From: Candidatus Dormiibacterota bacterium
GTDB lineage: Bacteria; Acidobacteriota; Polarisedimenticolia; Gp22-AA2
Reading direction: 5' to 3'
Length of the DNA stretch: 64,000 nucleotides
Assembly (NCBI GenBank): GCA_035635555.1
Contig: DASQAT010000035.1
Span: 62,001 to 126,000 of the forward strand
Shown here: in pieces, positions 6,262 through 7,598 of the stretch
How the letters are laid out: the number at the start of each line of letters is the position of its first letter
How positions within the stretch are numbered: position 1 is the stretch's first letter
Notes under the pieces: generated by a model
Databases searched by the model: none
What the model saw: the letters and a program-made list of their open reading frames with translations, nothing else
Told to the model about the DNA's origin: nothing
Translations under genes and position numbers: made by a program

Positions 6262-6642
6262 CTACCTTGTCCCGGATCTCTTCCGAGCGGGACCGACCAG
6301 CCGGAGAAGAGCCTCCTCGTCGAACCCCATGACCGCGTGACCGCCGCGCACGACGATCGGCCGGCGGATCAGGTTCGGGTTCTGCGCCATGAGGCGGATC
6401 GATTCGGCCGGCGACGGCGGGTTCTCCGCCATCTTCATGGTCCGGTACTGCTCGTTCCGCGTATTCAGGAACTCGCGCGGGTCGCGGTCGCCGAACAGAT
6501 CCTTCAGCTCACCTTCGGTGAGAGGGTTCCTGCCGATGTCGCGCTCGACCAGGACGACCCCCTTCTTCAGCAAAAGACCTTTTGCTTTGCGGCAGCTCGT
6601 TCAGGTCGGCTTGTGGTAGAAGCGCAGCTCGGTCTTCGCCAT
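6262..6642 (-). CDS. ArsC/Spx-like thioredoxin-fold protein, predicted selenoprotein (UGA at codon 14)
   Basis: Reading from ATG at 6642 (GGGAGG site 7 bases upstream), the protein begins 'MAKTELRFYHKPT', then TGA (6603-6601), then 'TSCRKAKGLLLKKGV', and ends at TAG after 126 codons. Arsenate-reductase-like proteins have C-x-x-C or C-x-x-S exactly here, so the TGA replaces the nucleophilic Cys and gives U14-x-x-C17. Downstream 'FLNTRNEQYRTM' and 'PIVVRGGHAVMGFDEE' are conserved family segments. They show that the frame after the TGA is real. A perfect hairpin follows the TGA (see the SECIS entry). Reading only from the internal Met would remove the active site. The likely role is a cytosolic redox enzyme (thiol or arsenate type); the substrate is unknown. 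Confidence 0.8.
6569..6586 (-). promoter_or_regulatory. Predicted bacterial SECIS hairpin of the ArsC-like gene
   Basis: In message sense the 18 bases AGCAAAAGGUCUUUUGCU, at +15 to +32 after the UGA, form a perfect 7-bp stem with a GGUC loop beginning at +22. The apical AGGUCU matches the SelB-recognised apical sequence known from E. coli fdhF, and the distance is in the accepted range for bacterial SECIS. Confidence 0.75.
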
Positions 6643-6680: not shown

Positions 6681-7598
6681 CTACTCCTGAAAGTAATTCG
6701 GATCGTCGGCGATGAGAATCGAAGCGAACACACCGTTCTTCAGCTCGACCGAGCAGGTGGAGTGCGCGAGGACCAGCCGGGTGTACCCCTCGCCGCTCGA
6801 CACCGTATCCACCGGTTTGCCGAGGACGCTCGCGACCTCCGACGAGGGGGCTCCGAACCGCAGGGTCCTGAACACGGCGGGCCGCTGGCCCGGCTGCCCG
6901 GTGAGCTGCACGGAGAACACCTTGTCGCGGTACCCTTCGCCGGCGTCCCCCACGACGACGTACGTCTGCGACTCCAGGTCGACCAGGAACACGTAGAGAT
7001 TCTCCTGCCCGCGCCGCATGACGTGCGGCTCGCCGTATTTGGCCTTAAGCCCCTCGAGGACCGGCGCCAGCGGCCGTCCCACGGCGATGCCGAAGAGCTG
7101 CCTCGCGAAGCACGTGTCCCGCGGCAGGGGCTTCGGCGGGCCCGCGTCGAAGTCGATGAGGAGGTAGAGGCGATCGGGGCCGGAGAGCGCCGCCCCAAGG
7201 TAGCGCACGTACACGGTGAATTCCTGCCCGGGGTTCAGAAGCTTCGCGAGCTCCGACAGCACCTCATCCTGGATCGGCAGCCAGTACGACCGACCCTGCT
7301 CGACCACCTCGATCTCCTTGCGGTAGAGGGCGGAGTATTCCGGCTTGTGCAGCGAGCGCGCCACCATCACGATCTGGGCGGCCCGGAGTGCCGCGATCGA
7401 ACGGGTCGCACCGGAGTACTTCACGCCGACCGCAAGGGCCGGCGTCGCGGCATCGAAGACGAAGTCCCGTCCCTCGGCCGCCGCCGGCTGCTGTCTTTGG
7501 AAGTTCTTGAAGGTCGCCGGATGGAATTCCGCGGAATCGAAGGCAAGAACCGCGACGCACGCCGTGGAGGCCACCAGGACGAAAACGGCTCTTTTCAT
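6681..7598 (-). CDS. Hypothetical secreted protein
   Basis: A protein of 305 residues starting MKRAVFVLVASTACVAVLA, a typical signal peptide, followed by a mixed alpha/beta mature part. It contains 'YLLIDFDAG' and two similarly spaced 'GEP/GKP' segments ('LKAKYGEPHVM' and 'ASVLGKPVDTV'). The latter resemble the short motif of SmpA/OmlA-like or PepSY-like folds, but this is not strong enough for an assignment. It starts 4 bp after the histidine kinase stop, on the same strand, so the two are probably cotranscribed. The function is unknown. Confidence 0.7.
   Translation of the reverse strand: MKRAVFVLVASTACVAVLAFDSAEFHPATFKNFQRQQPAAAEGRDFVFDAATPALAVGVKYSGATRSIAALRAAQIVMVARSLHKPEYSALYRKEIEVVEQGRSYWLPIQDEVLSELAKLLNPGQEFTVYVRYLGAALSGPDRLYLLIDFDAGPPKPLPRDTCFARQLFGIAVGRPLAPVLEGLKAKYGEPHVMRRGQENLYVFLVDLESQTYVVVGDAGEGYRDKVFSVQLTGQPGQRPAVFRTLRFGAPSSEVASVLGKPVDTVSSGEGYTRLVLAHSTCSVELKNGVFASILIADDPNYFQE

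Follow-up and report, generated by a model that had tools for sequence, protein, structure and literature searches.

The question raised by this locus is whether a TGA codon near the beginning of a short open reading frame on the minus strand of the window (the whole stretch of 64,000 nucleotides that was analysed) ends translation or is read as selenocysteine (Sec). The frame, its ribosome site and the codon in question are located as follows.

6262..6642, minus strand: predicted selenoprotein frame of 126 residues, ATG to TAG, with Sec at position 14; based on the sequence, its orthologues and a Pfam ArsC match of 71.3 bits
6648..6653 (approximate to a base or two), minus strand: RBS-like GGGAGG 5' of the ATG, read from the sequence
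6601..6603, minus strand: UGA codon 14, predicted Sec in a U-T-S-C motif; TGA in all complete orthologues, Cys in homologues

The ATG occupies positions 6642-6640 and is separated by a short spacer from the preceding GGGAGG, in agreement with the start and ribosome site proposed in the first-pass annotation. The frame translates as MAKTELRFYHKPT-TGA-TSCRKAKG..., with the TGA at 6603-6601 lying in a PT-U-TSC motif, and it continues for 112 codons to a TAG at 6264-6262. In the alignment, the column of codon 14 coincides with the reactive Cys of the Spx and ArsC profiles and is also Cys in the Cys homologues, which bears out the earlier claim that the UGA stands at the nucleophilic Cys of the family.

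Decoding of UGA as Sec requires a dedicated apparatus, and a search of the assembly for selA, selB, selC and selD had accordingly been proposed. The host genome (4.28 Mb, 99% complete) contains all four components: SelA (542 bits), SelB (334 bits), SelD (366 bits) and a tRNA-Sec scoring 75.9 bits, to which ARAGORN assigns a TCA (UCA) anticodon. SelB and tRNA-Sec, whose absence the first-pass annotation would have taken as pointing to a nonsense mutation or a sequencing error, are thus both present. The host SelD was found to have an in-frame TGA of its own.

L115:1498-2499 (G000:C46:119634-120566): host SelD with in-frame TGA

This TGA lies near the N-terminus, in the sequence SGGUAAKLSP (U33 of the translated stretch), and is followed by a hairpin. 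The host SelD is therefore probably itself a selenoprotein, and as a second gene it supports decoding of UGA as Sec in this organism.

The TGA at codon 14 is retained in all six complete orthologues, which come from the genus and family of the window and from one public Acidobacteria MAG (L017); TGC, which had been suggested as a possible codon in close relatives, does not replace it. The orthologues share 61-74% identity with the window protein, with conservation on both flanks of the TGA, and Cys17 is invariant. A peptide-pattern search of the species collection recovered one relative only, and a class-restricted profile search returned, beyond the orthologues, only weak matches. That the TGA might stem from a sequencing error or a nonsense mutation, or mark a decaying pseudogene, finds some encouragement in the congener G003, where the N-terminus is broken: the start of the gene, TGA included, is missing, and the sensor kinase upstream is joined at its 3' end to the hairpin described below (L024, L112). 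The junction inside that hairpin may reflect either a real deletion or an assembly error. Seven species whose genomes were assembled separately nevertheless share this TGA, at identities as low as 61% and with the frame conserved after it, which rules out both sequencing error and pseudogene; we consider this explanation refuted and leave it next to no probability. Nor is there any appreciable chance that the UGA is decoded as Trp or some other amino acid, or passed by simple readthrough. The open frame would be compatible with such decoding and nothing further speaks for it, whereas five orthologues appear to use TGA as their normal stop, the homologues have Cys rather than Trp in this column, and tRNA-Sec and SelB are encoded in the genome.

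The first-pass annotation had further described a perfect 7-bp hairpin with the loop GGUC at +22 from the TGA, and this structure was confirmed.

6569..6586, minus strand: predicted SECIS hairpin with a 7-bp stem (AGCAAAA/TTTTGCT) and the apical loop GGUC; based on position, conservation of pairing and codon bias

The stem strands occupy 6586-6580 (AGCAAAA) and 6575-6569 (TTTTGCT) and enclose GGTC at 6579-6576, so that the stem starts at +15 and the loop at +22; as expected of a bacterial SECIS, the hairpin lies directly behind the UGA and has G in its apical loop. By itself the folding energy of the window hairpin is unremarkable, with a z-score of -1.33 against dinucleotide shuffles and no significant difference from synonymous recodings (p 0.56), and the claim of a hairpin consequently rests on its conservation, which exceeds chance. 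A perfect 7-bp stem arises in 1.4% of synonymous recodings. The hairpin occupies the identical place in seven species, as the proposed test of its conservation had called for, with bases 15-21 downstream of the TGA paired to bases 26-32 in 49 of 49 cells, and sliding the partner strand abolishes the pairing. One pair shows a compensatory change, with G-C in place of A-U in three sequences, and another has changed from A-U to G-U, while five of the seven stem pairs are invariant and hence uninformative on covariation. The loop is GGUC in six of the seven species and AGUU in L017. The hairpin is also written in codons that are in the minority in this G+C-rich genome (AAA GCA AAA GGT CTT TTG; joint frequency 2.3e-8 including CTG), of which GCA and TTG are the same throughout the seven species, whereas synonymous sites a few codons further on vary. 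No Rfam family, and no SECIS family among them, scored above threshold on the hairpin.

More distant members of the family have other stems at about the same place, for instance GCCAGGA-GUU-UCCUGGC and GCAAGGC-GGUC-GCCUUGC, several of them shifted by one to four bases. When folding was compared with synonymous recodings, members with TGA did better as a group, with a mean z of -2.1 (n=23), compared to -0.7 for members with Cys (n=8).

With the full Sec apparatus in the genome, the TGA kept in relatives and the hairpin conserved with compensation, the selenocysteine reading of the first-pass annotation is upheld: we predict from sequence comparison, with a probability of roughly 0.94, that the gene encodes a selenoprotein in which the UGA at codon 14 is read as Sec. 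By homology and by comparative anatomy of the gene, SelB, guided by the hairpin past the UGA, would bring Sec-tRNA-Sec to codon 14, and translation would then go on to the TAG.

The product scores 71.3 bits against PF03960, the ArsC superfamily, well above the gathering score of 24. Its predicted structure (pLDDT 88.9) shows the fold of ArsC and Spx and places residue 14 where helix 1 begins, and the best structural matches are B. subtilis Spx followed by ArsC-family proteins. The predicted protein would thus have a thioredoxin-like fold of the ArsC/Spx type, in which Sec14 opens the first helix and Cys17 serves as the resolving residue. Sec14 together with the invariant Cys17 suggests a cycle between a reduced form and a selenenylsulfide with an Se-S bond, by analogy with other UxxC oxidoreductases. 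Judging from motif and fold, the protein is likely to be a cytosolic selenol-thiol (selenol-disulfide) oxidoreductase rather than a regulator or an arsenate reductase.

Both of the latter functions nevertheless deserve consideration. As a Sec version of the Spx switch, the protein would use oxidation of Sec14 and Cys17 to control its binding to RNA polymerase, at the alpha subunit, and thereby regulate transcription. Among solved structures, Spx is the nearest in both sequence and fold; as in Spx/MgsR proteins (TIGR01617; B. subtilis Spx 1z3e, 3gfk), the protein has a residue pair at the CxxC position and two conserved arginines, R62 and R94, which align with R60 and R92 of Spx, and its C-terminal G-F-D/N-E pattern is nearer to GYNE of Spx than to GRP of ArsC. 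It differs from these proteins in having Sec for the first Cys, a loop two residues shorter and no counterpart of Gly52: Asp54 aligns with G52 of Spx, a residue of the region that binds the RNA polymerase alpha subunit, and an invariant Glu64 aligns with K62 of Spx. G52 was mutated in alpha-subunit studies, and K62 is required for full activation (PMC2801614). The score against TIGR01617, 67.7, also lies below the cut-off of 75.05. Control of polymerase binding is considered unlikely, and the literature searched contained no Sec-containing Spx. The same must be said, slightly more firmly, of a transcription regulator that senses oxidants via its selenol, although such a selenol-based switch, if true, would explain why Sec has been retained despite the existence of Cys homologues.

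A Sec-containing arsenate reductase appears highly improbable. The protein matches the Pfam ArsC family and shares its fold and the position of the reactive residue with E. coli ArsC and YffB; of the three arginines (R60, R94 and R107) with which E. coli ArsC binds arsenate, two have counterparts, R62 and R94. The position of R107, however, is taken by Phe (GFD, not GRP), the arsenate reductase model TIGR00014 gives 47.3 bits, far below its cut-off of 106, and in the neighbourhoods examined, where the adjoining genes vary by clade, nothing was recognised as an ars operon. It is the missing third arginine, together with the lack of recognised ars genes nearby, that makes arsenate reduction unlikely.

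The NCBIfam models for Spx/MgsR, Spx and ArsC all match the window protein, each under its curated cut-off, and none of the cut-offs in the NCBIfam scan was reached, that of the ArsC selenoprotein model included. As a consequence the gene is probably mis-annotated, in keeping with the N-truncated or missing gene expected in the first-pass annotation, and genes of this type in related genomes are likely to have been truncated or missed by annotation. The ArsC selenoprotein model, NF041106 (ArsC_rel_Se_1), likewise describes ArsC-like proteins with TGA at the active-site position, but the window protein lies outside that family, with 29.1 bits (21.8 in the search of its own genome) where the cut-off is 85.

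Reports of ArsC-like proteins that contain Sec go back to 2006 (PMC1794560); a UxxC family named 'Arsenate reductase 2' was placed under cd03032 in 2008 (PMC2398784) and repeated in the list of a 2022 review (PMC9312934). Compared by description only, this GOS family of ArsC-like UxxC proteins likewise belongs to the ArsC superfamily and, by the lists of 2008 and 2022, has Sec in UxxC in place of the reactive Cys. The published proteins come from marine metagenomes and deltaproteobacteria, whereas the clade of the window is probably acidobacterial. ArsC-like UxxC selenoproteins have thus been known since 2006 and 2008, and the window protein is a well-supported addition to a known kind, not a new phenomenon.

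A profile search of 396 genomes of the phylum gave matches in 75, some with TGA and others without a stop, and the column was U or Cys wherever it was read residue by residue. The tree requires at least five changes between Sec and Cys, with many weak deep branches. The closest Cys homologue, L071, has the motif CSTC and is 50% identical, and its genome has no selA match. More generally, selA was found in 15 of 15 TGA genomes tested, compared to 5 of 13 non-TGA genomes (8 of 13 were without it), counts that are uncorrected for relatedness and include five non-TGA genomes in which Cys was deduced solely from the absence of a stop. Sec and Cys forms, the latter often in genomes lacking selA, and shifted hairpins make this a good set for studying the evolution of SECIS elements and of Sec/Cys switching.

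One Cys (TGT) homologue, L074:1495-1839, comes from a genome with selA and retains half of a hairpin, AAGAAGTTTTCTT, in the position of the SECIS; this may be left over from a recent change from Sec to Cys. The phylum also has a second family of ArsC-like proteins with TGA (L026-L029, L031), characterised by the motif T-U-STCRK, a GRP tail and a stronger hairpin, GCAAGGC-GGTC-GCCTTGC, which begins 10 bases past the TGA. A third TGA family, mostly with a G-U-TSC motif, occurs in the class and order (L038, L041, L042, L045, L046, L047) and resembles NF041106, an assignment made by eye from the alignment.

The gene neighbourhood differs between clades and gives no guide to function. In the distant genome G299 SelA lies 5 kb from the homologue, which is probably a coincidence. 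The clade to which the window belongs has a sensor kinase upstream of the gene. Within the window, a 305-residue frame (6681-7598, minus strand) that has no Pfam match separates the sensor kinase from the selenoprotein gene; in G001, G002 and G004 the kinase is directly upstream of the selenoprotein gene.
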